Assembly: GCA_001799575.1 (NCBI GenBank) | Contig: MGTT01000015.1 | Span: forward strand, 1 to 64,000 | DNA length: 64,000 bases | Direction of reading: 5' to 3' | From: Elusimicrobia bacterium GWA2_56_46 | GTDB taxonomy: Bacteria; Elusimicrobiota; Elusimicrobia; Elusimicrobiales; UBA9959 | Notes under the pieces: model-generated | Databases searched by the model: none | Told to the model about the DNA's origin: nothing | What the model saw: the letters and a program-made list of their open reading frames with translations, nothing else | Program-made: the position numbers and the translations under genes | Shown: piece by piece, positions 31,068 to 61,026 of the stretch | How positions within the stretch are numbered: position 1 is the first letter of the stretch | Layout of the letters: each line of letters begins with the position of its first letter

Positions 31068-33254
31068 ATGAAAAAGAAATCGCAGGTGCTGCTCATAAAC
31101 CCGCCGAACCCGGATCCGGCTCCCAATTATTTCGGGCCTCCATACGGACTTTCGCTTATAGCCGCTTCCCTGCGCAGGGCCGGATTGGGCGTAGCCTGCC
31201 TCGACCTTGACGACTGCGCCCGGGATCCGGGCATTTCCTCGGCGATAAGCGCGGCCAGGAAATCCGGGGCGAAAATAGTCGGGATAGCCGCGCAAAGCTC
31301 CACCAGGGACGCCGTTTACAGAATGTCCAGGGAATTTAAAACGGCCCTGCCGGAAGTAAAAATAGTGGTCGGCGGGGCATTCTCCACCGCTATGCCGGAA
31401 ACGCTGCTGCGCAACAGCGGAGCGGACGCGGCGGTGATAGGGGACGGAGAGGAAACCATGACCGAGCTGGCGCGGGCCTTTTTAAAGGGCGCCTCCATCT
31501 CCGGCATCCCCGGCGCGGCCACGCTTACAAAGGGGGCGTTTTTTTCCGCCCCCCCGCGCGCGCAGATAAAAAACATAGACTCGCTTCCCTACCCGTACTT
31601 TGAGGCCTTTGACTTTAGGAAAAAATTAGCCCCGGCGCTGTTACGGTCTCCGGATCTGCTGGGATTCGATCCGGCGTATAATTATGCGCGGGGCAGGCGC
31701 TGCTGCGCCATGCGCGCGTCCCTGATGCTTATTTCCTCCCGCGGCTGCGTTTACTCCTGCGCTTTTTGCCCCATGAGCGGAGAAAAAGGGATAAAAATAA
31801 GATTTCACAGCCCCGAGTATTTCGTATCCATGGCGGAAGACTTTCATCGCCGCCACGGCGTCAGGGATTTCGTGTTCGGGGATAATTTTTTCACCTGCGA
31901 CCGGGCGCGCGCCCTGAAGATATGCGGGGAAATTACCCGCAGGAAACTGAATATCAGATGGATGTGCATGACACGCGCGGACGCGACAGACCCGGTTCTT
32001 TTGCGGGCGATGGCCGGGGCCGGCTGCGTTGAAATCTCCTACGGCGTAGAAAGTTTCGCCCCGGAAATCCAAAAAGCAACAGGGAAGTTTCTGGATCCCG
32101 CCCTGGTAACCCCGTGCCTGGAAAACACCAGGGCCGCCGGGATCCACGGCGTCCTGATGCTTATGAGCGGCAGCCCCGGCGAAAGCGAAGATACCATCCG
32201 CACAACTCTTACGTCCTGCCGGCGCCTGGCTCCCGACCGGGCAATGATCAAAAAAACAAGGGTCTATCCGGGTACCGCGATCCATTCGGCCGCGGTCAGA
32301 GCCGGGATCATCCCCCGGGGGTACTATGACGGCCCGGATCATAAAGCTCCTTACTATACCGCGGAGCTGCCCAGGGCCGAGTTCGACAGGCTTGGGGAAT
32401 TTATACGGGAAAGAACCATCTATATAGACCTGCCGGAAAAACTTTCAAAAAAGGATCTTAGTCTGCGCCAGCTTATACTGCTGGCATACCACCGGGCCGA
32501 ACGCGTTTCCCTTGGAGGAAAGAAAAAGGATCTTCTGCTGCTGCCGTTTCTGCCCGAGATCCTGCGCCTGGCTGGTGAAGTCGGGTTGCACGAGCTGGAA
32601 CTGCGCACCGACGCTTCCGCCTTGCTCTGCGGCTCCACGCTCCGGACCCTTGAACCGCATATCCGCTCCGTGCGGCTGCTTGTAAATTTTGAATCCGCGG
32701 CGCGGCCGATTCACGACGGCGTTCGCGGGCGCGGTTCTTTCGCGGCAAGCCTGGCGGGAGCGGCCATCTGGCGCAGGCGCGGAGGAACGCTGGGCGCTGT
32801 CATACGCCTCACAAACAGCGGCCGGGAAGACCTCTCCGGCTTTTGCGCGCGCCTAGCGGGCCCGGGCTTTTCAGGGGCTGAATTCTCGCTGGAACCCCGC
32901 CCCGGACTCTCCGGCGTTTTTTCAACCGAGAGCGTTCCGAAATGGACAAACCTCCGGAGCGGGGTGCGGGCCGCAGCCGACTTCTGCGGGCGGAACGGAA
33001 TAGCCGCCGCAGTAAGCGGAGTCCCCGAATGTATGCTGAGCGATATTCCGGCGGTCAGACCCGAGAACCGCGCGCCGTTCGACGAAAGGCTCTCTTTAAG
33101 CGGCGAGCCCGTCCCTCTTTCTTTTGAAAGAGAAACTCTGTTTAAAATGAAACCCCCCCGCTGCCGCGCCTGCCGCTGGCGCGGGCATTGCGAGGGCCTC
33201 TGGAAAAGTTACGCCGAACACTATGGAACAAGTGAATTACGGGTCAGGAAATAA
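31068..33254 (+). CDS. Cobalamin-binding-type radical SAM protein with a degenerate second rSAM half
   Basis: A 728-residue protein. Residues about 1-150 are a B12-binding-type Rossmann domain (LLINPPNPDPAPNYFGPPYGL, IVVGGAFSTAMPE, VIGDGEETM). The rSAM core has CVYSCAFC and the B12-rSAM hallmarks (VFGDNFF, VEISYGVESF, GSPGESEDTI). The last 250 residues look like the C-terminal half of a type B rSAM: a HDGVRGRGSF segment equivalent to the HD..T..GSF motif, and the C-x2-C-x5-C end CRACRWRGHC followed by SYAEHYGTSEL. This second half lacks its own CxxxCxxC, so it may be a substrate- or cluster-binding module. The start overlaps nothing; the end overlaps the next gene by 32 bp. Confidence 0.8.
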   Translation: MKKKSQVLLINPPNPDPAPNYFGPPYGLSLIAASLRRAGLGVACLDLDDCARDPGISSAISAARKSGAKIVGIAAQSSTRDAVYRMSREFKTALPEVKIVVGGAFSTAMPETLLRNSGADAAVIGDGEETMTELARAFLKGASISGIPGAATLTKGAFFSAPPRAQIKNIDSLPYPYFEAFDFRKKLAPALLRSPDLLGFDPAYNYARGRRCCAMRASLMLISSRGCVYSCAFCPMSGEKGIKIRFHSPEYFVSMAEDFHRRHGVRDFVFGDNFFTCDRARALKICGEITRRKLNIRWMCMTRADATDPVLLRAMAGAGCVEISYGVESFAPEIQKATGKFLDPALVTPCLENTRAAGIHGVLMLMSGSPGESEDTIRTTLTSCRRLAPDRAMIKKTRVYPGTAIHSAAVRAGIIPRGYYDGPDHKAPYYTAELPRAEFDRLGEFIRERTIYIDLPEKLSKKDLSLRQLILLAYHRAERVSLGGKKKDLLLLPFLPEILRLAGEVGLHELELRTDASALLCGSTLRTLEPHIRSVRLLVNFESAARPIHDGVRGRGSFAASLAGAAIWRRRGGTLGAVIRLTNSGREDLSGFCARLAGPGFSGAEFSLEPRPGLSGVFSTESVPKWTNLRSGVRAAADFCGRNGIAAAVSGVPECMLSDIPAVRPENRAPFDERLSLSGEPVPLSFERETLFKMKPPRCRACRWRGHCEGLWKSYAEHYGTSELRVRK

Positions 33255-34206
33255 CCCCGATCCCCAGCCCGGGAAAGCCGACCTGTTGCTGGCCCTTACA
33301 AGGAGATGCAACCTTAACTGCCGTTACTGCTTTATTGACAGGCGGAGAAAACCGGCGGATCTGCCGCGGAAGACCTTGAAACTGGCGCTCAAGCTGTTGT
33401 TTTCCTCTTCTAAAAAAGCGCTTTCGCTCCAGTTGTTCGGAGGAGAACCCGCGCTGGCCCCGGCGCTGGTCTTCGATGCCGTCGCCATCTCCAGGCGTAT
33501 GGAGGCGGAGACCGGCAAGCGCCTGGAAATTTCTCTTACCACCAATCTGCTTGGCTGGTCCGACGCCGCCCTGCGTTTCCTGGCAAAAGAGCGGGTCGGG
33601 ATCCTCGCAAGCCTCGACGGAGATGAAGCGGCGCAAACATGGAGAAGCGGAATAAATCTGCCTAAAAGGGATTTCATCCGCATGCTGGCGGCAGCGCGGC
33701 GCCTCAAGCGGCTGGGCTGCCGGCTGCGCCTGAACATGGTAGTCGCCCCTGAAAAAGTCCGCCGCCTCCACAAAAATTTTATTTTCCTTAAAACCCTGGG
33801 CCTTGGGGAGATACAGGCCGCCTATGCCCTCGCCCCAGGCTGGACCGCAAACCGCCGGCTGCAGTTTTTAAAACAACTTTTAAAAGCAAAAGCCTCCGGA
33901 CTCCGCCAGGATTGGGAAATAGAACCAGTGCTCACGCACCCACAGATATTCTGCGATTGCGACGGCGTCGTCTCGGTCGGTTGCGCGGCGGTGCTCGAAA
34001 CATCCGCGCCGGCCCTGGCAGAATCTTTCAAGATGGGAAACCTCGGGAACTTTTCCTCGCTTGACGATCTGGCGGGCTCAAGAAGAGAACAGGAAACAAA
34101 GATCTCGCGCCTGGCCGCGCAACGGGCTCTCCCACGGTTTATCCCGGAAGTTATTGCGCTCGGCAACGCGGCAAAAAGCGTCCTTGGCAGGGGGAAAGTT
34201 TCATGA
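33223..34206 (+). CDS. Radical SAM protein, type A
   Basis: A 327-residue rSAM enzyme. The [4Fe-4S] triad is CNLNCRYC near residue 32. Next come SLQLFGGEPALAPALVF (GGEP motif), LTTNLLG and LASLDGD, and near the end FCDCDGVVSVGC, the DxDG motif shared by the type A group. There is no C-terminal auxiliary cysteine cluster. It is encoded by the second gene of a three-gene plus-strand operon and overlaps the next by ATGA. Function unknown; the family reduces S-adenosylmethionine to a radical that modifies a peptide or small molecule. Confidence 0.78.
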   Translation: MEQVNYGSGNNPDPQPGKADLLLALTRRCNLNCRYCFIDRRRKPADLPRKTLKLALKLLFSSSKKALSLQLFGGEPALAPALVFDAVAISRRMEAETGKRLEISLTTNLLGWSDAALRFLAKERVGILASLDGDEAAQTWRSGINLPKRDFIRMLAAARRLKRLGCRLRLNMVVAPEKVRRLHKNFIFLKTLGLGEIQAAYALAPGWTANRRLQFLKQLLKAKASGLRQDWEIEPVLTHPQIFCDCDGVVSVGCAAVLETSAPALAESFKMGNLGNFSSLDDLAGSRREQETKISRLAAQRALPRFIPEVIALGNAAKSVLGRGKVS

Positions 34207-35342
34207 CCGCCTCTACGCCTCCCAAAGTAAACACACGCCTTCTCGCGGCCGCACTTTTACGGAGCGGCGGCATGGCCCCGGATCCGCTGGAAAGTCTCCG
34301 CCTCGGCGAGATCTACATCATGATGCGGTTTGCCTGCGACCTGCGCTGCGCCGCCTGCTCCCTCTGGGGCGACACAGGAGCGCTGCACCAGGCGGGCGCG
34401 GCGGCCCGTGAGCCGGCTAAAGGCCGCGGCCCGGACTGGACGGAAGTCATCAGGCAAACGGCCCCCTTCAAACCCCGGATGGTAAACTTCTCCGGCGGAG
34501 AACCCCTGCTGCACGACGAATGGCTGGCGCCGGCAAAGGAAGCAATGCGGCTTGGAATAGAAACCTCCCTGACGACTAACGGAATACACCTGGAGAAACG
34601 CCTCTCCTCGCTTTGCGGCGCCATAAGCCAGGTAAACCTGTCATTGAACGCCACGCCCCTTATAAGCGGGCTGATCAGGAAAGGCCCGAAAGGCCACTAT
34701 GAAAAGATGATGCGCGGCCTGCGTCTTTTTATGAGGGTCAAGAAAGCCCTGGGACAAAAAGCCCCGAGGCTGCGGCTAATGTGCACCGTATTCGACGGGA
34801 ACGCCGGTCATCTTCTGGAACTTTTGTCCTATCTTAAAGCCAGCGGGATCGAGGCCGATCAGTACTATTTCCAGCACCTTATCTACAACACGGGCCCGGA
34901 ACTCTCGGCGCAGGAACGGGAGCTTAAAAAGATGGGAATGAAGCCCTGGTTCATGCGGGGGTACAGCCTGCTCCCCAAAGGGCTGGATTCAAAGGCCCTG
35001 TCCCTGGAACTTGACGGAATAATCCGCTCGGATCGCCGGGTATCGCTGAGCGCCGGCCTTAAAGGGAAAACGCTGGACGACCACTACCTGGGAAAACACG
35101 GCTGGACAATGCCGGCTTATTGCGCCGCGCCCTGGCGCGACATAACAATGCTGCCGAACGGGGACGTCTGGATCTGCCCCGACTACCATATAGGCGGCAT
35201 TATGGAAAAACCTTTTTCCGCGATCTGGAACGGGGCGGCCGCGAGGCGCCTGCGGGCCAGACTCCTTAAAAGGCTGCTGCCCGGCTGCAGGGGCTGTTTC
35301 CACTATTATTGCGATAAGGAAACCGGCAAAGAGCGGCTGTAA
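34203..35342 (+). CDS. Radical SAM protein with twitch/SPASM-like C-terminus
   Basis: A 379-residue rSAM enzyme. The triad is CDLRCAAC (residues about 45-52), followed by NFSGGEPLLHDEWL, TTNGIHL and a long core. The C-terminus is SPASM/twitch-like: YCAAPWRDITMLPNGDVWICPDY, with CRGCFHYYC at the end, which should bind at least one auxiliary [4Fe-4S] cluster. It differs from its neighbours by this complete auxiliary domain, typical of peptide- or sugar-modifying rSAMs. It ends 12 bp before the convergent rSAM gene. Confidence 0.78.
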   Translation: MTASTPPKVNTRLLAAALLRSGGMAPDPLESLRLGEIYIMMRFACDLRCAACSLWGDTGALHQAGAAAREPAKGRGPDWTEVIRQTAPFKPRMVNFSGGEPLLHDEWLAPAKEAMRLGIETSLTTNGIHLEKRLSSLCGAISQVNLSLNATPLISGLIRKGPKGHYEKMMRGLRLFMRVKKALGQKAPRLRLMCTVFDGNAGHLLELLSYLKASGIEADQYYFQHLIYNTGPELSAQERELKKMGMKPWFMRGYSLLPKGLDSKALSLELDGIIRSDRRVSLSAGLKGKTLDDHYLGKHGWTMPAYCAAPWRDITMLPNGDVWICPDYHIGGIMEKPFSAIWNGAAARRLRARLLKRLLPGCRGCFHYYCDKETGKERL

Positions 35343-35353
35343 TTAGCAGACTG

Positions 35354-37138
35354 TTAGTCCGCTTTCCGCGCCGGCGACAGTTCCGAATCCCCGTATATCT
35401 CGGTATACCGGCTGAACGTACCCATACAGGAAGGCGCCGCGGCGCAATTGCCGCATTTGGCGGGCTTGGTGTAATTCTGGTGCATCATATACAACTTAAC
35501 GCCGTCCGCTATCTCCCCGGCCGGGACCTCGGCGTCCCCTTGTATCCGGCGCTGGACGCAAATCGGGAAACCCAGCAGCGAATCAACTCTGCCGGACAGC
35601 GCCTTTATCATTTCCGAATAAGATGGGACCAGTTCGGCGTAGGGGAGGCGCATTGCGCCCGGCCCTTTTGGCCTCAAAGAAAAAATACAGAACGGGGTTT
35701 TCAGCGTTTTGCGGGCAAAAGTCTCTATTTCCGGCAATTCCCGCAAATTCTGTTTAAGCGCGTTGGTATGCGTATAAACCTTTATCCCGGCCGCGGCGGC
35801 GGCCGCGATCCCGGCTATCGTATCGTCAAAACTGCCGGGGGTGGATGTAAGCGCGTCGTGAGCCCGCGCGGAACAGCCCATCAGCGGGATCGAAACCTCC
35901 GTAAGACCCGCCCCCGCCAGCCTGCGGCAGAATTCAGCGGACCGCAGAATGTTCCCCGATGTCATCATTTCAACGCGCCTGAACCCGCGTTCTCGGGCCC
36001 GCGCTATTATCTCAAGAATAGACGGCTCCAGCAGCGGTTCATTGCCTAAAATGCTTATTTTTGAATGCCCGACGAACCGGTTGGAGTCGAGGAAGCTGTT
36101 TATAGCCGCCAGATCATTCTCCTGGCCCGGCTTTTTCCGCTGACAAAAAACGCAGTCGTTAAGACAGCCCGACGCGATAAACATAAAAACGGAACCCATC
36201 CCGGGGAGATGGCGCCTGACAAACCGCCGCTGGGAGTAGATATCTCCATCCAGAAAGGATCTGGTTATCCAGGCGTTTTCGGACGGCTCCGTCCACTGCA
36301 TGGCCGCCCCATGCATCAAAGAGGAGAATAAAGATCCGAATTTTAAAAAACTTTTTTCCCAGGCGGCATACTTGCCGCGAGGCTCGTTCTTCTCAAGCGC
36401 GGTCCGGAAAGACCCGCCCAACAGGTAACATAAAGGATAAATCTCCCCGCGGCTGAACAGCGGATCCCAGGGTCGCAGCCCGCCCTCGTCCCCGGCCAGG
36501 GTGTTTTCTATCTGAATGCGCGGCGGGTGGTCGCCGTCCCTTTTTTTATTCGCGAGGCCGACAGGCCCGGAGAGCGCTTTTAAGAACCCCGCCTCTTCTT
36601 TCCTTGAGAGCCCGCGGCCGGGATCCGGATTCAGCAGCGCGTAGCGCACCCCGCGGCGCGGGAGTTCCTCCAGCAGCGCCGTTAATCTCCCCGCGGTTCC
36701 GGGAGAAACCGAAATCAGGCCTCTCAGCCGATAGCCGTATCCGCACGCCGCCCCGGCGGCCCCGGCCAACGCCCTCAGGAAACCTCCGGTCAATTTCTCC
36801 CCCGCGCTGATCCGCGCATACGGGGAAAAATCCATCCCGGCCAGGGCCTTGAAAACTCCGGGGCGGGGAGGCTTCCCGAAAATCGCGGAAATATGCAGCC
36901 CGCGGTTACGGCCGAGCCCGCGGACGGCCCGTACGGCTGCGGGCGGCAGCGAGTCCCCGTCGCTGAAGCAGATAAAATGAATCTCCTTTTTACCGGACAA
37001 CAAAAGCAGGCCGGCCGCGGCCTCATAATCCGTTCCAGGCCGGCAGAGAACCGCGAGAGATCCGGTTTTATCGGGCATTTCTCCTGCGAAACCGGCTCCT
37101 GCGTAAAAACCCATTATTTTTTCCGTTTCCCGTCCCAT
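35354..37138 (-). CDS. Radical SAM protein, type B, with a 320-residue N-terminal extension
   Basis: A 594-residue protein. Residues 1-320 are not recognised, apart from an alternating strand/helix pattern that could be a degenerate first rSAM or Rossmann domain (SLAVLCRPGTDYEAAAGLLL). The rSAM core begins with CLNDCVFC, then SILGNEPLLEPSIL (GNEP replaces GGEP), HDALTSTPGSFDDTI, GFPICVQRR (the PLC-like motif) and the C-terminal CGNCAAAPSC with SRYTEIYGDSEL. It closely follows the type B plan apart from the extension. Its gene starts one base after the U32-like gene stop. Confidence 0.75.
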   Translation of the reverse strand: MGRETEKIMGFYAGAGFAGEMPDKTGSLAVLCRPGTDYEAAAGLLLLSGKKEIHFICFSDGDSLPPAAVRAVRGLGRNRGLHISAIFGKPPRPGVFKALAGMDFSPYARISAGEKLTGGFLRALAGAAGAACGYGYRLRGLISVSPGTAGRLTALLEELPRRGVRYALLNPDPGRGLSRKEEAGFLKALSGPVGLANKKRDGDHPPRIQIENTLAGDEGGLRPWDPLFSRGEIYPLCYLLGGSFRTALEKNEPRGKYAAWEKSFLKFGSLFSSLMHGAAMQWTEPSENAWITRSFLDGDIYSQRRFVRRHLPGMGSVFMFIASGCLNDCVFCQRKKPGQENDLAAINSFLDSNRFVGHSKISILGNEPLLEPSILEIIARARERGFRRVEMMTSGNILRSAEFCRRLAGAGLTEVSIPLMGCSARAHDALTSTPGSFDDTIAGIAAAAAAGIKVYTHTNALKQNLRELPEIETFARKTLKTPFCIFSLRPKGPGAMRLPYAELVPSYSEMIKALSGRVDSLLGFPICVQRRIQGDAEVPAGEIADGVKLYMMHQNYTKPAKCGNCAAAPSCMGTFSRYTEIYGDSELSPARKAD

Positions 37139-38125
37139 TCACCCGTCAACAAAAACCCGGCCCGCAAGGCTGTCAAAAAAACCGCTGAACGGATCCGCCG
37201 CAGCGCGCATCACTTTTTTTGCGAAGCCCGCCGGGAACCTGTTGTTATCGCAAAACAAATTCCGCCATTGACCGCCGAAGCCCACGACATCCCCCAGATT
37301 CCCTTTATAAGAACCTTCAAAATAAGCCCACAGCGTACGCTTTAAAGTTTCAGAATTGTTGGAGCGGAACGCCAGTTTTATTATATCGGCGCGATTCTTG
37401 CGCAGGTAATAATCGACATCCTCCGGCCTTATAAACGGCCGCCTGAGCAAATCGGAGCGCGTCGGTTTGGGAAAAACACATTTATTCGCGTCCAGCAGCG
37501 CCCCGAATGAATTTTTGTTGTTATTCAGCGGCGCGAGCGTCTCCAGCGCGTCATGCCATTTGTAGAAGGGGCAGGCGTGGTAACAAACCGAGTTCGCCAG
37601 CAGTTTTACCTTAAACCCGGGGTATGACTTTTTGAGCCGGAACAAGGCCTTGAGCGCCGCCTCATTGCGGTTCAGATCTATATGCAGATTGACGGTTCCC
37701 GCCCCAAGTTTTAATATGGTTCTTACTTTTTCAAACGAATCCAAAACCATGCTGACCGAACATTGGATATCTTTGCCTGGAAATTCCTTAACAAAGGCCG
37801 CCAGCGCGTATGGATCGGCCACTGTCACGGCGTCTAAATATTTAAGGCTCTTTATATACCGGAACGCCGCCGGACAATCGTCAAAAACCAGCGTCGGCTT
37901 ATTGCATAAAAGGTTGCTCCTGATTTCATAATCCCTGCACAACGCGATAAGCTCCGAAATCGTCCTGGGCGAAAAATCGCCCCCGCCGCCGTACACGGGG
38001 TAACTCTGCGACAAATCGTTTCCGGCCGGCCCGGCAAAATATATTTCAGCCACTTTGCCTGTTTTAGCGGCCTCTTCCATCAGAGCGGTGTCCCCGTTGA
38101 AAGGTATTGAAAATATTTTATTCAT
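37139..38125 (-). CDS. U32-family (UbiU/UbiV-like) protein
   Basis: A 328-residue protein. FDDCPAAFRYIKSLKYLDAVTVADPY, CSVSMVLDSFEKVR, LHIDLNRNEAALKAL and LLANSVCYHACPFYKWHD resemble the TIM-barrel core of the U32 peptidase-like family, whose UbiU/UbiV, TrhP and related members bind a [4Fe-4S] cluster. LLRRPFIRPEDVDYYLRKNRADIIKLAFRS fits the family's C-terminal region. Such proteins accompany rSAM genes in some natural-product loci. It is sandwiched between two rSAM genes with spacings of zero and three bases, so a partner role in the same pathway is likely. Confidence 0.6.
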   Translation of the reverse strand: MNKIFSIPFNGDTALMEEAAKTGKVAEIYFAGPAGNDLSQSYPVYGGGGDFSPRTISELIALCRDYEIRSNLLCNKPTLVFDDCPAAFRYIKSLKYLDAVTVADPYALAAFVKEFPGKDIQCSVSMVLDSFEKVRTILKLGAGTVNLHIDLNRNEAALKALFRLKKSYPGFKVKLLANSVCYHACPFYKWHDALETLAPLNNNKNSFGALLDANKCVFPKPTRSDLLRRPFIRPEDVDYYLRKNRADIIKLAFRSNNSETLKRTLWAYFEGSYKGNLGDVVGFGGQWRNLFCDNNRFPAGFAKKVMRAAADPFSGFFDSLAGRVFVDG

Positions 38126-38128: not shown

Positions 38129-39151
38129 TCACCCCCGGCTCGCCGGTCGACGGAACCCGGAAATTTCAGCGAACAAGCCGCGGGATAAGGCGCCCATGCG
38201 AAGATTCGAGTTTATTATCCGCCCTTTTCGGCTGCCCGCTGGGTAGGCGCCTGCCACCCGTCTTAAAGCCGTGTTGCGATCAACCTCCAGTTGGGACAAC
38301 CGGGAGAAATCCCGCAACTCGCCGATTTTCGTCGCCGCCAGCGCCTTTGGAAAATTTTTCTCCAAAGCCGGAATTACGCTCCCAAAATATACCGCGCCAT
38401 CGCAGTCCACGGAAGGGAGCGGGCAGCTCAGGCTCGGCTCGCTCCCGGAATCGACATTAAGCACAAACCGCCCGGCACCCTGTTTTTCCCTGGACAGGCG
38501 AAGTCGCAGTATTTTTTCAAAGTAGGCCCTGGAAGCGGAAAGAGGCCAGTCCACTCCCATCGCGTACGCAAAGTGGAAGTTTGTAACTCCAAGAGCCAGA
38601 AGATAATCCACATCATCTTCCAAGGAGCCCTCCCGCCCCGGCAGCGTCACAATATTTACGAAGTATTCCTGCTTGAGCCGGTTCAATTCTTTGATAGCCG
38701 CGCGCAGGCGCCAAAAAGGATATTTACCCGGGGCCGACCTGAACGGCCGCTGATAGCTCTGCTTCGGCAATGCGCCATCAATGCTCAGGATGTACTCCAG
38801 GGGCAGTTCCGCAAGACGCCGCACCCGGCCGGGAGTAAGCAGAAAACCGTTGGTGGCGATCACGAACTTCAGTTTTTTCCCCAGTTTGCCGGCCTTAAGC
38901 AAAGCCGCCCTGGATTGTCTGATTATCGTATCGTACCGGAGCAACGGCTCCCCCCCGAACCATTCCAACCGCACCTGTTCCTCGTCCGAGGCCAAAAGCA
39001 GGTCTACGCAGTCGGAGATCATGCCGTCCGGCATTGAAAGGTCTTGTTTGCTTTGTCGGCAATACCGGCAGGACAGCTGACAGGCGCGGGTGACCAGTAC
39101 ATGCAGACAGTTTATGCCCGTGGAACCCGTAGGCCGCCGTTTAAGGTTCAT
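38129..39151 (-). CDS. Radical SAM protein, type A
   Basis: A 340-residue rSAM enzyme. Motifs: CQLSCRYC (residues 24-31), LEWFGGEPLLRYDTII, IATNGFLL, YILSIDGALPKQ and, near the end, DCDGAVYFGSV, the DxDG motif of type A. No auxiliary cysteine cluster. It is the first gene of a three-gene minus-strand unit, divergent from the next rSAM gene. A TATAAT lies nine bases before the ATG, again predicting a very short leader. Confidence 0.78.
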   Translation of the reverse strand: MNLKRRPTGSTGINCLHVLVTRACQLSCRYCRQSKQDLSMPDGMISDCVDLLLASDEEQVRLEWFGGEPLLRYDTIIRQSRAALLKAGKLGKKLKFVIATNGFLLTPGRVRRLAELPLEYILSIDGALPKQSYQRPFRSAPGKYPFWRLRAAIKELNRLKQEYFVNIVTLPGREGSLEDDVDYLLALGVTNFHFAYAMGVDWPLSASRAYFEKILRLRLSREKQGAGRFVLNVDSGSEPSLSCPLPSVDCDGAVYFGSVIPALEKNFPKALAATKIGELRDFSRLSQLEVDRNTALRRVAGAYPAGSRKGRIINSNLRMGALSRGLFAEISGFRRPASRG

Positions 39152-39207
39152 GGTTTTTAAATTATATCAGAATTACCGAAAGGGAATACGCGCATGGGGC
39201 GGAAGCG

Positions 39208-39236
39208 TTTGCTCATTTGCGCGATAAAACCTATAA
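39208..39236 (+). promoter_or_regulatory. Sigma-70-type promoter of the two-gene rSAM operon
   Basis: TTGCTC at 39208-39213 and TATAAT at 39231-39236 are separated by exactly 17 bases. Transcription would start near 39243, giving a leader of about 17 bases to the ATG at 39260. It shares the 43-bp divergent gap edge with the type A gene on the other strand. Confidence 0.6.
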
Positions 39237-39259
39237 TTTTTTATCGGCGGGCGCAAATC

Positions 39260-40132
39260 ATGAAAAAACCTGTTGCGTTTGATTTCACGCTCACCCTGGT
39301 TTGCAACAACAACTGTATTTTCTGCCCCCGGAACGCGTTGAAGCCTATTGTTACCACCCCCGCGCGGATGCTGGAAACTATCAGAACTGGGGGGTGCCTG
39401 GAAGCGGTGCTGACCGGCGGAGAACCGACCACTCTTAAGACCCTTCCGTCCATAGCCGCCGCCTGCAAAAAGAGCGGGGCGAGAAAAATAGGCATAGTGA
39501 CCAACGGAAGAACCCTTTCGGACGCGGCTTATTTGGAAACTCTGGTTTCGGCCGGGATAACCTCTTTCGCTGTCTCCGTTTATTCCCACCTTCCGGAAAT
39601 ACACGACCATTTAACGCGCGCAAAAGGAAGCTGCGCCCAAACCTGGAAGGGCCTGGCCAACGCGGCGAGAGCCGCCCGCGGCGGGGCTATTGAAACCGGA
39701 GTCAATCTTGTCCTGTGCGCGGAGAATATCCGCGCCGCCGGTACGACGCTGAAGATGCTGAAAGCTTTGGGCGCCGACTCCGTTACTCTTATAAATCTCT
39801 CCGGTCCCTCCGCCGCCGCGAACATTTTCAATTACTCCATGATACCCCCCCTTCTGCGGGAACTGGGGCGCGGACGAGCCGCCTATCCCGGACGTATCGT
39901 ATTCCGGGGGTTCCCGCTTTGTATTTTCCCGGAAGCGGTCTCCGCCGAAAACCAGGACATAGACGGGGCCGGAGGAGTGTCCCGCGGACGGCTGCTTAAA
40001 TACGCCGGGAATTTCAGGCGGGAATTCGTGAAACCGGCTTCCTTGTGCCGCGGCTGCCGGAAAACTTCTTACTGCAACGGACTCGCCTCCGCCTACTTCG
40101 AACGCTACGCTCTTTCGGGGTTAATGAAATGA
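39260..40132 (+). CDS. Radical SAM protein, type B (HxsC-like)
   Basis: A 290-residue rSAM enzyme. Motifs: CNNNCIFC, VLTGGEPTTLKTL, IVTNGRTL, SVYSHLPEIHDHLTRAKGSC (the HD..T..GS motif), GFPLCIF and C-terminal CRGCRKTSYC then SAYFERYAL. These features and the size match the general plan of HxsC, the second maturase of His-Xaa-Ser systems. I start it at ATG 39260 since the promoter lies upstream of it; the longer frame from 39194 includes the promoter. It overlaps the next gene by ATGA. Confidence 0.75.
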   Translation: MKKPVAFDFTLTLVCNNNCIFCPRNALKPIVTTPARMLETIRTGGCLEAVLTGGEPTTLKTLPSIAAACKKSGARKIGIVTNGRTLSDAAYLETLVSAGITSFAVSVYSHLPEIHDHLTRAKGSCAQTWKGLANAARAARGGAIETGVNLVLCAENIRAAGTTLKMLKALGADSVTLINLSGPSAAANIFNYSMIPPLLRELGRGRAAYPGRIVFRGFPLCIFPEAVSAENQDIDGAGGVSRGRLLKYAGNFRREFVKPASLCRGCRKTSYCNGLASAYFERYALSGLMK

Positions 40133-53613: not shown

Positions 53614-54604
53614 ATGTTGTTTCCCTTAACAGTCTGCCCGCTGACCGCGCCGAAACAGGCTGTAGTTCGCTTACACCGTATTTTTTCAGATAGTCGGGGA
53701 ACACCCCGGCGCAAACCTCAAAAAGCGCGCATGAGGCGCATTCCCGGGTCTTTATCCTGTTTAAAGGGGGAACCAGACTCTTTTTAAAAGAAAGAACTTC
53801 CTCCTCAGCGCCCACTTTACCCCGCTCCAGCACTACACGCGGGGAGAACCCAAGATCGTTAGAAAACCTGCCCCATCCGCCCAGAACGCAGAGCGGAATG
53901 CCCGATATCAACAGGCGCGCTCCATTAACATCAAGCAACCGCTTGACCGGCGGGAATACGCGAACGATATCCGTCATGCTCACGGTAAGGCTGTCGTAGG
54001 ATGAACGGCCGCGGCCCCAGGGGATCAGCTGCGACAGCATAAGAACCCCGGGACGGGCCTTTGAAAAAACATATTCACAGATATCCGGAACGGCCGCCAG
54101 ATTCAGGGAACAGATCACCGAATGGCACATAAACAACCTGAGCCGCCCAAACCGTTTGATGTTCTCAAAAGCCGCTTCCGTGTCCGAGAACGCGGAATCA
54201 AATCTTGTGACCTCGCGGGCCAGCGCCTCGTTGTGCCAGTGTACGGAAAGGCAAAGCTCATCGATATCGGCCAGCACGCCGGCGGCGCGGGAGGCGTCAG
54301 CCAGCCCCGTACCGTCCGTGGTAACCTGCACCGTATAGCCAAGCAGCCTGGCTGCGCGGGCGATGCGATGAAAATCCGGATGGATGGTCGGCTCCCCTCC
54401 TATAAAGGTGATATGCCCCACCCCTTTTGTCCTCAACCTGTCCATAATCGCAACGGCTTCTTTCAAAGGCATAAACCTGGCGCCTGAAAGCATTCCCCTG
54501 GCCTCGCAGCAGAATACGCACTTCCTGCGGCAGGCCTTTGAGATCCTCAACTCGGCGCGTCCGCCGGAGCAGACATTGAAAGATGGGTCAACAACGCGGC
54601 TCAA
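53585..54604 (-). CDS. Radical SAM protein, type B (HxsC-like)
   Basis: A 339-residue rSAM enzyme directly upstream of the NifH-NifD fusion (29-bp overlap). Motifs: CRRKCVFCC (residues 25-33), ITFIGGEPTIHPDF, VTTDGTGL, SVHWHNEALAREVTRFDSAF (HD..T..GS partly degenerate), GIPLCVLGGWGRF, C-terminal CASCALFEVC then PDYLKKYGVSEL. Translationally coupled to the previous rSAM gene by ATGA. Confidence 0.76.
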   Translation of the reverse strand: MSRVVDPSFNVCSGGRAELRISKACRRKCVFCCEARGMLSGARFMPLKEAVAIMDRLRTKGVGHITFIGGEPTIHPDFHRIARAARLLGYTVQVTTDGTGLADASRAAGVLADIDELCLSVHWHNEALAREVTRFDSAFSDTEAAFENIKRFGRLRLFMCHSVICSLNLAAVPDICEYVFSKARPGVLMLSQLIPWGRGRSSYDSLTVSMTDIVRVFPPVKRLLDVNGARLLISGIPLCVLGGWGRFSNDLGFSPRVVLERGKVGAEEEVLSFKKSLVPPLNRIKTRECASCALFEVCAGVFPDYLKKYGVSELQPVSARSAGRLLRETTYVRENSCPG

Positions 54605-55323
54605 TATATTTCTCCCGTACAGATATTATACCTGACGAATCCGCCGCTTTTTTTCATTCCGGAATCCACGAGCTCCTGCCGGCGCGGCGCGAAACCATCG
54701 GCCATCAGCGCCGGATAGTTCACCTGAGTATCCGTGACGTTTTTTATAAAGCCCCAGATTTCGCACTTTACTCCCAGCCTCCGCATACCGGAAACAATCT
54801 CCCCCAACATCTCCTGATTCGCTTTTAGGGGGATCGTGTGTAATTTTAACGACACGCCGGGCCGCGCCTTAATGTTTTTTATCGCCCGCAACAGCGCAGA
54901 ATAACTCCCTTTTTTTTGGGTGACACCGTCATGAACCGCGGCCGTGGAACCGTAAACAGGCAAAGCGAAACCGTTGACGCCGGCCTTTACCAGGCGGGCC
55001 AGATACTTTCCGTCGCGCAACTTCAGTCCGTTACTCATCAGCTCCGTCTTTGTAAAACCTTCTTTTGCGGCCAAAGCGATAACGGCGTCCAGCAGCCACT
55101 CCGGGGCCACGGTCGGTTCATCGCCGCCAAGACCGAGGGTCGTTACGCCTCTTCCCCGCATAACGCGCATCAGCGCGCGAAGCCTGTCGAACAACCGGCG
55201 CCATTGCTTTTCGGAAAGATCAAAATCCGAACGATACGGATGCCTGTTCCTCAGGCAAAATACGCAGTCCATATTGCAGCCGAAAGGGAACGATACAAGC
55301 AATCTGTCCTCTGTTGACTTCAT
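54601..55323 (-). CDS. Radical SAM protein, type B, shortened at the C-terminus
   Basis: A 240-residue rSAM protein. It keeps CNMDCVFC (residues 15-22), an altered GLGGDEPTVAPEW (an extra residue in GGEP), LMSNGLKL and PVYGSTAAVHDGVTQKKGSY, but lacks the PLC motif and the C-x2-C-x5-C end of its neighbours, stopping at YNICTGEIY. Either a truncated, possibly non-catalytic family member or one specialised to a smaller fold. It overlaps both neighbours by ATGA, so it is still translated as part of the unit. Confidence 0.7.
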   Translation of the reverse strand: MKSTEDRLLVSFPFGCNMDCVFCLRNRHPYRSDFDLSEKQWRRLFDRLRALMRVMRGRGVTTLGLGGDEPTVAPEWLLDAVIALAAKEGFTKTELMSNGLKLRDGKYLARLVKAGVNGFALPVYGSTAAVHDGVTQKKGSYSALLRAIKNIKARPGVSLKLHTIPLKANQEMLGEIVSGMRRLGVKCEIWGFIKNVTDTQVNYPALMADGFAPRRQELVDSGMKKSGGFVRYNICTGEIY

Positions 55324-56276
55324 AAAGCCAAAGAAACCCCGGCCGCCCGGAAAACACCGGTTCGCCCTGGAAAGACCCGTAGATATTTTCTAAAAATCCC
55401 CCCGCAGCTTCCGCGGAGCCGGCAGGGCGAGCAGGCCTTGAGGTAAACACGCCGCCTGGTGGGACGGTACGACGCGGTTTCTTTCAAACCATACCTCCCC
55501 CGGGGCAACGCGGCGCGCTCCACGGTCAGACGCGGAGAGTAGTAGAAGTCGTTTGAAGCGGAGGCCTGCTCCCCCAGCGCGCAGGCCGGTACGCCAAAAA
55601 ACCGCAGAGTAATTCCGGAACTCAGCGCCAGGACGGAAAGCCCGCGGACCTGGCCTCGAAACTCGTTCAAATCCACGGCTAGATCTCCGTAACCGGCGCA
55701 GGCCCCTCCCTCGGGAGCGGGATATGACACCAGGTAATGCTTAACGGCCCCGAACCCGGAGATCAGGCGCAGGATCCGCGGCAGCTGCAACACGTTTTTT
55801 TTTGTCACGACCGTGTTAACCATCAGATAAAGACGCTTTCCGCCCGCGCCGCTTAGATTGGCGAGCGCCGCGAGAAAGGCGGCAAAACTTCCCTTTTTAC
55901 CGGTCAGCAGGTCGTGCGTCTTCGCGGACGCCCCGTGGCAGGAGAGAATGGCCTCGTCCAGGAACGGCGCGATCCGGCGCGCGAAAGCGCCGGAAGCAAA
56001 ACCGGAGCCATTGGTTGTGACGCAGGTTTTATAGCCAAACGCTTTAGCCATCCCGAGAGCCGCCGGAAGCGTATCGTGCAGCGACGGTTCCCCCCCGGTA
56101 AACGTGACATGGGAGAATCCGGCCCGGCGCTTGGCGCGCAGGACGCGCGCGATCTCCGGCCCGGTCAGGTTTAGCGCCCTGAATTTTTTCAGACGGCTTT
56201 TTTCGCTGCAGAAAACGCAGCCGTTCCCGCAGGAATATGAGATATGTATTTCCAGTCTTTTGATCTCTTCGGCCAT
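55320..56276 (-). CDS. Radical SAM protein, type B (HxsC-like)
   Basis: A 318-residue rSAM enzyme. Motifs: CGNGCVFC (residues 16-23), VTFTGGEPSLHDTL, VTTNGSGF, SCHGASAKTHDLLTGKKGSF, GVPACALGEQA (PLC-like) and C-terminal CSPCRLRGSC then RKYLRVF. 13 bases separate it from the upstream gene. Part of the minus-strand block. Confidence 0.77.
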   Translation of the reverse strand: MAEEIKRLEIHISYSCGNGCVFCSEKSRLKKFRALNLTGPEIARVLRAKRRAGFSHVTFTGGEPSLHDTLPAALGMAKAFGYKTCVTTNGSGFASGAFARRIAPFLDEAILSCHGASAKTHDLLTGKKGSFAAFLAALANLSGAGGKRLYLMVNTVVTKKNVLQLPRILRLISGFGAVKHYLVSYPAPEGGACAGYGDLAVDLNEFRGQVRGLSVLALSSGITLRFFGVPACALGEQASASNDFYYSPRLTVERAALPRGRYGLKETASYRPTRRRVYLKACSPCRLRGSCGGIFRKYLRVFPGRTGVFRAAGVSLAL

Positions 56277-56289: not shown

Positions 56290-57408
56290 TCAAACCCGCC
56301 CGACGGGAACCAGCGCGGAGAAGCCTTTTTGCATTACAGTTTTGACATGGGCGCCGCGGCAGCGGATGTTCTCCCGGCATTGCGCGCAGGCCGCGGCCTT
56401 GACCGTCATGCGTTCCCTGATATAGAATGCGGCAATTTCCATGACATCGGATCCGCCGGATACGCGCTTTCTTTCAAACGGTTTTCCCGGCAGACACCTG
56501 GGGACCGGCGCGGCGCGCAGAAAACCGGCGGCGCGCAGCTTTTCCAGATCCAGGCAGAATTGCTCCAGGACGCAAAATCGGCAGCGGCGGCCGCTGCAAA
56601 ACATTTTTTTTCCGGAACGAATGAACTTATTGAACACGCTCCGCGCTCCGCGGACTTCGTCCAGAATCTTGTCCGGATGCTGCATATAGCGTTCCTCCCC
56701 CTCCAGCAGCGGCAATGGGAATCTGTTTGTCCACAGATGCGCGCCGGCAGCTTCGGCGAACCGGAACACCCGCCGAAAAATATTTTTTTTATCCAGGGGA
56801 TTATAGGACAGTATTTTCCAGTTTTTCCAGGCGCGGCCGAACGGGATCAGGTGCAGCAGGTCATATTCGTTTATTTTCAGGCGATGAAGAAGCGACACTA
56901 TCTCAAAGAGCGAATCCACATTCACCCCGTTGACCACGATATCGCTGCTCACGATAAGTCCGCGTATTTTTACGGCATTAGAAATGCCAAGCAGGGTTTG
57001 AGAAAAGGCCCCGGGAACGCCGGCCAGCCGGTCATGCTGCGCGGCGGAGGCCCCGTGCACGGAGAAGGTGACCTCGGACAGCCCGGCCTTCACCGCCTGC
57101 CGTAAAAACTCGCTATAGGAGAACATCCGGCCGTTGGTTATCACCTGTACGTGGGTATACCCCAGCTGCCTGGCCAGGCCGATTATCCGGATAAACTCCG
57201 GGTGAATAGCAGGCTCTCCCCCGCTCAATACCACCCGGCGGCAGCCTTCCTCCCGTCCCTCCCTTAAGGCGGAGGTGATCCCATCCAGCGATTCATGTCT
57301 CCCATCCAGGGCGTCGGCGTCCAGGCAGAACAGGCAGCGATTATTGCACGCCCGTGTAAGCCTTACCCATTTGCGTTTTTGCGGAGCGCTGATAGCTTTT
57401 TTCGTCAC
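56290..57408 (-). CDS. Radical SAM protein, type B with two C-terminal cysteine motifs
   Basis: A 372-residue rSAM enzyme. Motifs: CNNRCLFC, VVLSGGEPAIHPEF, VITNGRMF, SVHGASAAQHDRLAGVPGAF, RFPLPLLEGEE (PLC replaced by PLP), CRFCVLEQFC and, 80 residues later, CAQCRENIRC. Two C-x2-C-x5-C motifs suggest two auxiliary clusters. I prefer the GTG at 57408, four bases after the upstream stop; ATG 57453 would overlap that gene by 41 bp. Confidence 0.74.
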   Translation of the reverse strand: MTKKAISAPQKRKWVRLTRACNNRCLFCLDADALDGRHESLDGITSALREGREEGCRRVVLSGGEPAIHPEFIRIIGLARQLGYTHVQVITNGRMFSYSEFLRQAVKAGLSEVTFSVHGASAAQHDRLAGVPGAFSQTLLGISNAVKIRGLIVSSDIVVNGVNVDSLFEIVSLLHRLKINEYDLLHLIPFGRAWKNWKILSYNPLDKKNIFRRVFRFAEAAGAHLWTNRFPLPLLEGEERYMQHPDKILDEVRGARSVFNKFIRSGKKMFCSGRRCRFCVLEQFCLDLEKLRAAGFLRAAPVPRCLPGKPFERKRVSGGSDVMEIAAFYIRERMTVKAAACAQCRENIRCRGAHVKTVMQKGFSALVPVGRV

Positions 57409-57412
57409 GATC

Positions 57413-58291
57413 TCATTCCCAAAGAACCCTGCCCGCCAATTTATCCGCGGCAAAACCGCCCGCCACGGCTTTAACCCCGAAGATTTTTACGGCAATAGCG
57501 GGATAATCCACCCGCGCGCGGCCGGCCAGGCTTATTTCCCGGAGATTAAGATCTCCGGCCAGCAAAGCTTTTGCCGGATCGTCGGTTTTAACCGCAAGGA
57601 TCAGATTGCCGTAATAACATCTCCCGTCGGCATCCACCGTAAATCCGGAGTTAAAAAGCGGAACCGGACCGCGGCGCGCCGCGTTTTCCAGCCGTATTTC
57701 CCCGGCGTCGCTCATTTCTCTTATCCGCTTCAGCGTTTTCCCCAGCAAAACCAGACCGGCCGCGCCCCATGGGCGGTAATAAGCCGGCAACACGTTCACC
57801 CTGGGGGACGCTCCCCCCGAGACCGTCTTTATCCGGGCGAGAACACGCAAGGCTGAGAGAGGGTCGCCGGACGGGATCAAAAGATTCCAGACAAGATTAG
57901 GCAACGCGGAGAACCGGCGATTAACATTTACCGAGGAATTTAGGTTGATTTGCACTCGCGGGCGGCGGGAAAAATACCTTATTTTCGGAGCGTCAAGCAG
58001 AACTCCATTGGTGCCGACTTCTACCGCCCCGTCATACCCGTACGAAGCAAGCCATGAAAGTCCCGACTTGACAAGGTCAAAGCGCAGAAGCGGTTCGCCG
58101 CCGAAGAACTTCACCGCTCCGGTTCTGCGGCCGGCGGCGGTAAAAAGCGATATCGCTTTTTTAAGGATCGCAGGCGCCATGTCAACAGCGCGGACCGCCA
58201 CGGGACACTCAGGGCAGCGCTTCTGGCAGCGCCGGGTCAGAATCAGCGTCAACCGGACGGCGCGCGTTTCCCCCGCTGAAACCAGCGGCAT
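57413..58291 (-). CDS. Radical SAM protein, type A
   Basis: A 292-residue rSAM enzyme. Motifs: CQKRCPEC (residues 23-30; the usual aromatic before the third Cys is Glu), AVKFFGGEPLLRFDLV, GTNGVLLD and TVDADGRCYYGNL near the end as the DxDG motif. No auxiliary cluster motif. It is encoded four bases after the prepilin-like gene and starts the long run of rSAM genes on this strand. Confidence 0.76.
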   Translation of the reverse strand: MPLVSAGETRAVRLTLILTRRCQKRCPECPVAVRAVDMAPAILKKAISLFTAAGRRTGAVKFFGGEPLLRFDLVKSGLSWLASYGYDGAVEVGTNGVLLDAPKIRYFSRRPRVQINLNSSVNVNRRFSALPNLVWNLLIPSGDPLSALRVLARIKTVSGGASPRVNVLPAYYRPWGAAGLVLLGKTLKRIREMSDAGEIRLENAARRGPVPLFNSGFTVDADGRCYYGNLILAVKTDDPAKALLAGDLNLREISLAGRARVDYPAIAVKIFGVKAVAGGFAADKLAGRVLWE

Positions 58292-58295
58292 CAGT

Positions 58296-59258
58296 TTATC
58301 GACCCCGTCCCGCTTTTCCTCTCAACGCCCTTTTCATGTCAGCAATCCTCTTCTCGTCCGCGGCTTCAAATGCGCGGCGCTCGCTTACCACCTCCTGGCG
58401 AAGCTGGCTTTTGCAGTAACTGTCGGCCAGTTTTTCCGCGAGCGGGATACAAACCGACCGGTTGCGGGAGCGCATAATATTCGTAAGCCAGCCCTCCGGT
58501 GAAACTGTTTCACCGGAAGCCAGGGCGGCGCTCAGCAGGCATTCTTTCCTATTTCTCCCTGCGACCGCCCTGCAGGCATTGCGGCCTTTCAAAAACACAA
58601 AACTGGCCTCGCAATCCTCGATATCACCGAGTTTTTTACAACTCGGGGCCTTTCTTTTGGACAGCGCGGCGGCGGCGATCTGACAAAAATCGGGGCTGAT
58701 CCGCGTATTAGCGAACGCATCTTTTACGAATCGCGCGCAGATCCCGTCTTCCGGGGTATTATTGAGAGATGAATTCAAAAACTCGTAGTATCCGGCCGTG
58801 ATACAGATCGGGTTTAAATTTCCGGCGCATGGGAACCTGCCGCCGCCAAGAATCGAGCATACCGCATAGTCCGACAGCAACCCGAACATTTTTTCATCCT
58901 CGGGCTGACCGCCCCGCCGCACAAAGATGGAATCGAAGTTCTCGATAAAATGGGAAAGCAGCGAATCGGGGGAACGTTTGAATTCCCGCAGGCAGGCGCT
59001 CTCCGGAACATCCACCGGCACTTTCGCTATCCCCGCCGCCGGATCAGCCGGGACGGGTGTATCAACCGGCGCGGCGGCCGTATCGGGGAGCGGCTGTCCC
59101 TCCTCATCGGGCGCGGCCGGAACGGCGCTCCGCCGCGCATCCAATTTCGCGCTGTTTCTGTCCGACACGACTTTCAACGCGAGAAGCGCCGCCATCAGTA
59201 GGACGACTAAAGCGATAAGGGCGTTTAACGCGGTAAACCCGGATTTTAATCTCTTCAT
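58296..59258 (-). CDS. Cys-rich secreted protein with a prepilin-like N-terminus
   Basis: A 320-residue protein. The N-terminus KRLKSGFTALNALIALVVLLMAALLAL has a basic start, a Gly-Phe site and a long hydrophobic helix like a type IV prepilin, except that the usual Glu5 is Asn, as in some minor pilins. A Pro/Ala/Asp-rich linker (45-85) follows, then a globular domain with twelve Cys. Not a known family. It could be processed by the A24 protease encoded in the same operon (46182-47393). ATG 59258 is four bases after the HxsA-like stop; the longer frame overlapping hxsA is rejected. Confidence 0.65.
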   Translation of the reverse strand: MKRLKSGFTALNALIALVVLLMAALLALKVVSDRNSAKLDARRSAVPAAPDEEGQPLPDTAAAPVDTPVPADPAAGIAKVPVDVPESACLREFKRSPDSLLSHFIENFDSIFVRRGGQPEDEKMFGLLSDYAVCSILGGGRFPCAGNLNPICITAGYYEFLNSSLNNTPEDGICARFVKDAFANTRISPDFCQIAAAALSKRKAPSCKKLGDIEDCEASFVFLKGRNACRAVAGRNRKECLLSAALASGETVSPEGWLTNIMRSRNRSVCIPLAEKLADSYCKSQLRQEVVSERRAFEAADEKRIADMKRALRGKAGRGR

Positions 59259-59262
59259 TGCT

Positions 59263-59544: not shown

Positions 59545-59562
59545 ATTTACCTCAGACGATAC

Positions 59563-61026
59563 CTAGAGATGAACACCCGCGGCACTAGCCTCGCTGCCCG
59601 CCCAGGCCTCGAAGAGCTTCTTTGTTTTAGGATCGCGCAGTCTTTCAAACAGGCAATCCAAAATCCCGGAATAAATCTCACAGCGGTAATTCGGGTGGTG
59701 CAGATACAGATCGTTGTGCTCCGAATAATTAAAAACCGGGCAAACCCCGCAATAAGGCTTGTAAACGCAGGAGGAGCAGAGCGTCTGTATGTCGGTAATA
59801 GACGCCGTAGCAAGACACTTTACGACCGGACTGGAAACGATGTCCGCATAAGAGTCTTTTTTCAGATTTCCAAGGCAAAAAGAATCCACTCCCTCCACCG
59901 CCAGCATACGGCCTTCGTCGCAGGTAAACACCCGCCCGTCGTAATCGTACGCCAGCTGGCCGATCCCGGCGCCGCAGGGCGACCTGAGATCCATAAAATT
60001 CGGGTCGGAATCCGTCAATATTTTCCCGAGGAAGATCCTGGCGGCATGCTCGACTATCGAACTTTTTCCCTGCGCGTTGAGCTCGATTATGTAATCGAGG
60101 GCCTTTTTATAAAAATCCAGATACTCCGCGGCGGAGTAACCGATGCCCGGCCAGGCTTCTTTCGCGACCCCGAAAGGGTTAAGAAACCTGAGGAAAATAC
60201 CCCTGGCTCCGGCGCGCGCGTATTCATCGACTATTTCCCTGTGACGCCCGAGCGATTGTTTTGTGACCGTCAGCAGAGCGTCCGGCCCATTTTTGGTTCT
60301 GGAACTTTTTTTCTTTATCCGCCCCCACCACTTCACGACGGCGCCGTAACTATCCGCCTCCGCGCAGACGCGGTTCCTGTTATGAAGATCCTCCGGACCG
60401 TCCAGGGACGTGCAGACCGCGACATTGTGCTTCAGTAAAAAATCAAGCCGTTCAGCCGTCATGGCCAGAAGATTGGTGACAAGGCTGAACCCCACTTTTT
60501 TGTCCGAACTCTTCAGGCGGGCCCCCGCTTCCTTTACCACAAATTCCAGAACCGGCCAGTTCAGCAAAGGCTCACCGCCCTGAAATTCTATGGTAAGGGC
60601 CCGGGCCGGGGAGGAGAAAATGGCGTCGAGAACCCTGCCGGCGGTTTCCCGGGTCATATCAAGCCCGGCCCCTGACTTTACCGACGAAGCCTGGCAGTAC
60701 ACGCACTTATGATTGCAGCGTTTGGTAAGCACGATGATATGCAGCGCCGGGCCGTTGAAGAGAAAATGGCTCTTTTTGCGCCAACGATCGCTTAACGAGT
60801 CAAAATCCATATAATCGCGGATCAGGCCTTTCTGCGCCAGATTTTTATAATCCGCCGACCCGCTGGGCACGGTACCGGAGGTGAACGCGGAAAAAACCGC
60901 GGGGGAAAGGAAAACGTGGTCCCCTATATCGTTGGTGACAAGATAATCGGCGCCAAGCTTTTTATACCGGAAAAACCCGGTTTTTTTAGCGTTGAAATCA
61001 ATTTTTTCTTTTTGCTTTTTTAGCAT
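59563..61026 (-). CDS. hxsB: His-Xaa-Ser system radical SAM/SPASM maturase HxsB
   Basis: A 487-residue rSAM/SPASM protein. Its N-terminus (FFRYKKLGADYLVTNDIGDHVFLS, about residues 18-41) is the HxsB-type leader-binding-like segment. The rSAM triad is Cys104/Cys108/Cys111 in CNHKCVYC; then IEFQGGEPLLNWPVLE, VTNLLAM and CTSLDGPEDLHN. The SPASM region has PCGAGIGQLAYDYDGRVFTCDEGRML and CSSCVYKPYC. SPASM rSAMs of this size modify peptides using two auxiliary clusters. It lies between hxsD (29-bp overlap) and the HxsA-like gene, the natural arrangement of His-Xaa-Ser loci. Confidence 0.85.
   Translation of the reverse strand: MLKKQKEKIDFNAKKTGFFRYKKLGADYLVTNDIGDHVFLSPAVFSAFTSGTVPSGSADYKNLAQKGLIRDYMDFDSLSDRWRKKSHFLFNGPALHIIVLTKRCNHKCVYCQASSVKSGAGLDMTRETAGRVLDAIFSSPARALTIEFQGGEPLLNWPVLEFVVKEAGARLKSSDKKVGFSLVTNLLAMTAERLDFLLKHNVAVCTSLDGPEDLHNRNRVCAEADSYGAVVKWWGRIKKKSSRTKNGPDALLTVTKQSLGRHREIVDEYARAGARGIFLRFLNPFGVAKEAWPGIGYSAAEYLDFYKKALDYIIELNAQGKSSIVEHAARIFLGKILTDSDPNFMDLRSPCGAGIGQLAYDYDGRVFTCDEGRMLAVEGVDSFCLGNLKKDSYADIVSSPVVKCLATASITDIQTLCSSCVYKPYCGVCPVFNYSEHNDLYLHHPNYRCEIYSGILDCLFERLRDPKTKKLFEAWAGSEASAAGVHL

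Follow-up and report, generated by a model that had tools for sequence, protein, structure and literature searches.

A radical SAM gene array with an embedded nitrogenase-like reductase in an Elusimicrobia genome, probably an expanded HxsA4-type peptide-maturation locus

The DNA analysed here (the window) comprises 64,000 nucleotides of contig 15 (MGTT01000015.1, positions 1 to 64,000) of the 2.66-Mb draft genome of Elusimicrobia bacterium GWA2_56_46, and contains an array of genes for radical S-adenosylmethionine (SAM) enzymes at 31,068-61,026, together with genes for a His-Xaa-Ser repeat peptide of the Hxs system and a nitrogenase-like reductase (Table 1; genes are named below by their lower coordinate). 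A preliminary description of the sequence had counted 20 radical SAM proteins, almost all linked by gene overlaps. A motif check of every listed open reading frame (ORF) confirmed 20 ORFs with CxxxCxxC, and 18 of them passed the PF04055 cut-off in a Pfam profile scan; 57413 fell below it (25.6 vs 29.5 bits), and the Pfam match of 43428 was to the B12-binding domain only, its CLNSCSFC motif being spanned by BchE-type models. GGEP or a near variant occurs throughout the radical SAM ORFs, the exceptions being 49234 (AAEP) and both B12-type proteins. Most neighbouring genes overlap by 4-50 bp or lie at most 22 bp apart, in agreement with that description, these values depending on start codons partly set by hand (starts or ORFs were improved for 39260, 40129, 45253-46212, 46182-47393, 48330-49244, 50118-51407 and 58296-~59258). 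The 30-kb block makes up 1.1% of the genome and holds 19 of its 52 detected radical SAM domains, where 0.58 would be expected by area (binomial p ~5e-24, a yardstick only, as random placement is presumed). Elsewhere in the same genome, six radical SAM domains form another, smaller group (G000:C29:23,800-40,000). The U32-like protein, A24-like peptidase and NifHD- and NifK-like proteins previously listed as interrupting the array are present; the peptide gene hxsA, the adjoining gene for a Cys-rich protein and hxsD, just past the end given for the array, had been overlooked.

Table 1. Genes of the array and its Hxs core, with the evidence for each assignment
Feature	Coordinates	Strand	Basis
HxsA4-type precursor peptide, 93 aa	59263..59544	-	six-frame repeat scan; NCBIfam HxsA4 52 bits vs cut-off 55
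HxsB, radical SAM/SPASM maturase	59563..61026	-	NCBIfam TIGR03978 493 bits vs cut-off 370
HxsD	60998..61453	-	NCBIfam TIGR03976 52.2 bits vs cut-off 50 (scanned as ORF 60998-61492)
HxsC homologue, radical SAM, best conserved of HxsC-like set	45253..46212	-	HxsC4 119.9, HxsC 100.5 bits, both below cut-off
NifH-NifD-like fusion	51388..53613	-	PF00142 221 bits; PF00148 48 bits
NifK-like subunit	50118..51407	-	PF00148 142 bits
HxsC-like radical SAM; orthologues directly after NifK in other loci	56290..57408	-	profile matches, locus comparison
HxsC-like radical SAM	55320..56276	-	profile matches, locus comparison
HxsC-like radical SAM, short, lacking C-terminal Cys motif	54601..55323	-	profile matches
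HxsC-like radical SAM	53585..54604	-	profile matches
HxsC-like radical SAM, AAEP in place of GGEP	49234..50121	-	profile matches
HxsC-like radical SAM	48330..49244	-	profile matches
HxsC-like radical SAM, conserved beside A24-like gene	47396..48325	-	profile matches, locus comparison
HxsC-like radical SAM	39260..40132	+	profile matches (scanned as ORF 39194-40132)
HxsC-like radical SAM, 300-aa N-terminal extension of unknown kind	35354..37138	-	profile matches
HxsB/PapB-like radical SAM, lacking auxiliary-cluster Cys set	33223..34206	+	profile matches
HxsB/PapB-like radical SAM, lacking auxiliary-cluster Cys set	38129..39151	-	profile matches
HxsB/PapB-like radical SAM, lacking auxiliary-cluster Cys set	40129..41148	+	profile matches
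HxsB/PapB-like radical SAM, N-terminal extension	41099..42430	-	profile matches
HxsB/PapB-like radical SAM, lacking auxiliary-cluster Cys set	42427..43431	-	profile matches
Divergent HxsB/PapB-like radical SAM	57413..58291	-	PF04055 25.6 bits (below cut-off); weak HxsB/PapB matches
B12-binding radical SAM	31068..33254	+	PF02310 and PF04055
B12-binding radical SAM, divergent	43428..45275	-	PF02310; BchE model 38 bits, below cut-off
Radical SAM protein, SPASM domain at C-terminus	34203..35342	+	PF04055, PF13186
A24-like (CpaA/TadV-type) membrane aspartyl peptidase	46182..47393	-	alignment of 24 homologues
U32-like protein	37139..38125	-	PF01136 19.1 bits, below cut-off 22.4
Cys-rich, membrane-anchored protein, beside HxsA in many Hxs loci	58296..59258	-	homologue family across Hxs loci

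Haft and Basu are cited in PMC9062424 as the origin of the Hxs system, and NCBIfam includes HxsA4 and HxsC4 models. The HxsA gene of the window, located between those for HxsB and the Cys-rich protein, was detected as an ORF in a six-frame scan for His-Xaa-Ser repeats, and its product consists of a leader with FLSSEEGK, a hydrophobic stretch, the repeats and a terminal GQW. HxsA homologues with the same repeats were found in four related loci, and the three scanned scored 64-88 bits, above the HxsA4 cut-off. HxsB and HxsD of the window both exceeded the cut-offs of their own models. The best HxsC homologue, 45253, has orthologues 52-60% identical in other Hxs loci and reached 100.5 vs 267.9 bits for HxsC and 119.9 vs 500 bits for HxsC4; as no HxsC passed a model cut-off, the window represents an Hxs variant and not a standard Hxs system. 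An AlphaFold model of HxsD (moderate confidence, predicted local distance difference test 75.7) gave no significant match in the PDB (best E 0.029). In myxococcal HxsA leaders, an RRD(F/L) stretch precedes the hydrophobic segment, which we read as similar to a twin-arginine translocation signal and which would suit export following modification in the cytoplasm. Both presumed catalytic Asp residues of the A24-like protein (D54 and that of the WPAGDAK motif) were conserved among 24 aligned homologues; a homologue matched PF01478 below the cut-off. A pilin reading of the Cys-rich protein was dropped, as the pilin-like N-terminus of the window copy was not common to its homologues.

Best models and a tree sorted the radical SAM proteins into four sets. 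The HxsC-like set comprises 39260, 45253, 47396, 48330, 49234, 53585, 54601, 55320, 56290 and, through its C-terminal part, 35354; the HxsB/PapB-like set consists of HxsB with 33223, 38129, 40129, 41099, 42427 and 57413. Of the remainder, 31068 and 43428 are of B12 type and 34203 is of SPASM type. The best models for most of them all were of the peptide-maturase type (HxsC4, HxsC, PapB, HxsB), the others being B12-radical SAM or twitch models. Most HxsC-like proteins, 54601 not among them, carry a C-terminal CxxCx5C motif, consistent with one auxiliary cluster, while a comparable Cys set is missing from all HxsB-like proteins except HxsB. HxsB was the only radical SAM protein of the cluster above an NCBIfam cut-off for a function-assigned family, which speaks against a placement of the array in unrelated families with assigned functions, an outcome that the preliminary description had named as evidence against a joint role.

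The NifH part of the NifH-NifD-like fusion gave its highest scores with the CfbC and NifH models (218 and 214 bits), and the Cys pair of its [4Fe-4S] cluster was invariant in the alignment. The nearest PDB relatives of the NifK-like protein were subunits of dark protochlorophyllide reductase (DPOR), subunit B being the closest. The P-cluster Cys set is incomplete, with two invariant Cys in the NifD part and one in NifK, and the complex would fit a two-electron reductase with one interface cluster. N2 fixation by it is very unlikely on these features. The homology to NifHDK could in principle mark a true nitrogenase or nitrogenase-cofactor assembly locus, but the three invariant Cys are too few for a P-cluster, the best solved relatives of NifK are from DPOR, and no nifB, nifE, nifN or nifV-type gene was recognised in profile scans of the cluster; we consider this explanation highly improbable.

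Comparison with related genomes showed a conserved gene order. In L106 and L136, on the same contig, the order is HxsD-HxsB-HxsA-radical SAM-NifH-NifD-NifK, followed by orthologues of 56290, 47396, the A24-like gene and 45253, L136 ending before the far end of the order seen in L106. L133 keeps the order of L106 without Nif; L034, L052, L055 and L108 retain the Nif-56290-47396-A24-45253 part; and the Myxococcales locus L092 carries HxsD together with HxsB-NifHDK-HxsA-HxsC homologue in that order. In the window, the core genes from HxsD to 45253 form one run on one strand with extra radical SAM genes interspersed, and NifHDK is placed between 56290 and 47396, matching other loci. Such genes were thus clustered, not scattered, in related genomes, contrary to a second outcome that would have spoken against the array. 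Hxs loci without Nif contain 4-10 radical SAM ORFs per 15-20 kb, except for L120, which is truncated by a contig end and contains no such ORF. Radical SAM enrichment is therefore a property of the Hxs locus, to which Nif is an optional addition.

These arrangements bear on whether an Hxs peptide system and an independent radical SAM/Nif-like set merely share one site and make separate products. The divergent orientation of part of the window (31-41 kb) and the occurrence of NifHDK alone elsewhere would agree with two such systems. Against them, the Nif genes lie within the run of Hxs-like genes and overlap them, the order is conserved between families, and Nif-less Hxs loci show the same radical SAM enrichment. 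We regard two neighbouring systems as unlikely.

The association of NifK with the precursor peptide was also apparent at the level of genomes, counting as HxsA4-positive those above the cut-off plus the window genome, which lies just below it. Among 160 Elusimicrobiota genomes, HxsA4 was present in 12 of 13 NifK genomes (a manual tally, possibly off by one) and 13 of 147 others (~9%; Fisher p 1.6e-10), and in Myxococcota, the phylum of genome G203, in 8 of 11 and 7 of 184 (~4%; Fisher p 2e-8), respectively, counts and Fisher values taking no account of phylogeny. HxsA4 above the cut-off was likewise found in 22 of the 26 non-Elusimicrobiota genomes detected by NifK. As NifK often lacks linked radical SAM genes, its link to HxsA4 frequently exists at the level of the genome without local clustering.

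Nitrogenase paralogues accompanied by a large suite of radical SAM enzymes were reportedly found in Elusimicrobia, Gracilibacteria and Myxococcales in 2020, and are reported to have been assigned to a tetrapyrrole. PMC9391474, following Meheust et al. 2020 (doi 10.1038/s41396-020-0716-1), treats group VI nitrogenase homologues as putative genes for a tetrapyrrole cofactor. Applied to the window, this assignment would have the NifHDK-like complex reduce a tetrapyrrole ring, as DPOR or CfbCD does, and the radical SAM enzymes tailor the product. The affinities of the NifH part to CfbC and of NifK to DPOR subunits, and the BchE-type matches of the B12-radical SAM proteins, would accord with it. 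It is opposed by the resemblance of most radical SAM proteins to peptide maturases, by the embedded HxsA, HxsB and HxsD and by the co-occurrence of NifK with HxsA4 in two phyla, and Pfam and NCBIfam profile scans of the cluster found no haem, cobalamin or chlorophyll gene, nor any other tetrapyrrole biosynthesis gene. A tetrapyrrole pathway thus appears improbable for this locus.

Taken together, gene content, order and co-occurrence suggest that the locus is probably an expanded HxsA4-type His-Xaa-Ser peptide-maturation locus, similar to those of ribosomally synthesised and post-translationally modified peptides (RiPPs), that also encodes a nitrogenase-like reductase. A role of the array in HxsA maturation can be proposed with good confidence. 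In a possible mechanism, HxsB and the HxsC homologue, aided by HxsD, would bind the HxsA leader in the cytoplasm, without oxygen, and proceed along the repeats. Each His may be joined to the Ser two residues on, by analogy with three-residue cyclophane enzymes acting at His-Xaa-Ala and Phe-Xaa-Ser; taken by itself, a His-Ser crosslink on HxsA is doubtful. The additional radical SAM enzymes, two of them B12-dependent, may add further modifications. Using ATP, the NifH-like part would supply low-potential electrons to a single iron-sulphur cluster at the NifD/NifK interface, and a bond formed on the peptide would be reduced there. Leader trimming by the A24-like membrane protease may accompany export. 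Reduction by the NifHDK-like complex of bonds made by radical SAM enzymes on the HxsA repeats, leading to an exported peptide that is rich in His, heavily modified and perhaps able to bind metal or act as a structural thread, is a speculative end of this scheme, and the identification of the peptide itself as what the Nif module reduces is likewise tentative.

Several observations weigh against the interpretation as an HxsA4-type locus. Twenty enzymes for a short repetitive peptide are hard to rationalise, and no product of any Hxs enzyme was reported in the literature searched. The window HxsA scores just under its model cut-off (Table 1; E 9.6e-14), and the HxsC homologues are far under theirs. 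In several genomes (L023, L025, L028) NifHDK stands alone, apart from radical SAM genes, and it may therefore act on a substrate other than the peptide. The co-occurrence statistics are blind to phylogeny, and a few Nif-positive genomes lack HxsA4, for which the incompleteness of metagenome-assembled genomes is a possible reason. The earlier proposal of a multi-step assembly line for one product retains a basis in the conserved, mostly co-oriented locus with a single plausible substrate peptide; that all 20 enzymes act on one product is more conjectural.

The history of the array was considered from its flanks and trees. Congeners G001 and G002 have both flanks in common with the window (59-97% identical; carbamoyltransferase 97% in G001, ygeY 86-87% in the congeners) and a different Hxs array in the slot between them, with HxsB 43-47% identical to that of the window and no NifHD fusion found in it. 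Synteny of the whole array in the nearest relatives, which had been suggested as a check, is thereby ruled out, and only the core is kept in related genomes. In the trees, HxsB and the HxsC homologue of the window grouped with family f7 and Myxococcota (support 87/97 and 100/99), apart from their own family. At least eight array genes lie side by side in the f7 genome G138 (L150), and because orthologues of 31068, 35354, 41099, 42427, 43428 and 55320 adjoin there, a recent lineage-specific expansion of most radical SAM genes was dropped. The simplest reading suggested by these sequences is transfer into, or exchange at, a fixed chromosomal slot; variants of ancient origin that were retained, or faulty binning or assembly of the draft genome, are possible alternatives. 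The slot edge at 27618-30513 (-) carries the carbamoyltransferase and YgeY-type hydrolase genes, highly similar in congeners with differing arrays. Several B12-type radical SAM ORFs stand in a row in one congener Hxs region (L149, G002:C43:85,001-93,000).

Compared with the Hxs system, the window shares the His-Xaa-Ser repeat peptide, HxsB, HxsD and HxsC-like enzymes, but its HxsC homologues are below model cut-offs and it adds ~15 HxsB-/HxsC-like radical SAM proteins, two B12-radical SAM proteins, a SPASM-type one, the A24-like peptidase and the NifHDK-like reductase. The group VI paralogue loci of groundwater Elusimicrobia and Myxococcales also have NifHDK-like genes beside many radical SAM genes in the same phyla, a likeness of gene content; their published reading is a tetrapyrrole cofactor, whereas the present analysis links such loci with an HxsA4 peptide. 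Triceptide (three-residue cyclophane) RiPP systems likewise combine a radical SAM/SPASM enzyme with a three-residue motif, and PMC11002830 gives HaaB (His-Ala) and MscB (Phe-Ser) as crosslink precedents. The Hxs system differs in having many paralogous enzymes per precursor, and a shared way of working would be an analogy from motif and enzyme class; these fit, and window HxsB scored below the triceptide-type models in the NCBIfam scan. The isethionate nitrogen fixation-like (NFL) system IsrBHDK of Rhodobacter capsulatus (PMC11423573) has a nitrogenase-like HDK with an adjoining radical SAM gene, but involves one such enzyme, sulfonate metabolism and no peptide. No paper joining radical SAM, nitrogenase-like and RiPP was found in the literature searched, and the tie of Nif/radical SAM loci to a peptide precursor looks new. 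The Hxs system and this kind of Nif/radical SAM locus are already described; what is new, and can be tested, is the link between peptide and nitrogenase relative. It provides nitrogenase relatives of unknown function with a genetically linked candidate substrate that can be expressed, the 93-aa peptide, and with a small number of partner enzymes, and calls the published tetrapyrrole assignment into question. If true, peptide modification would be added to the functions of the nitrogenase superfamily, and few peptide pathways known to us would be as rich in radical SAM enzymes as this locus.

Other features were observed in and around related loci. In L151-L154 (G138:C16:40,001-110,637), some nine NifK-like copies are spread over 70 kb together with genes for NifH and NifD, and HxsC-like genes lie among them. 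A trio of a radical SAM, a U32-type and a 274-aa unknown protein, absent from the window, is conserved in related Hxs loci (L014:6068-8888, L017:9452-12148, L018:11729-14562). The array in the window is flanked by genes for a barnase-type secreted ribonuclease and barstar (62890-63898, -), and in several related genomes this pair also lies beside Hxs loci (L015, L017, L022, L145, L147).

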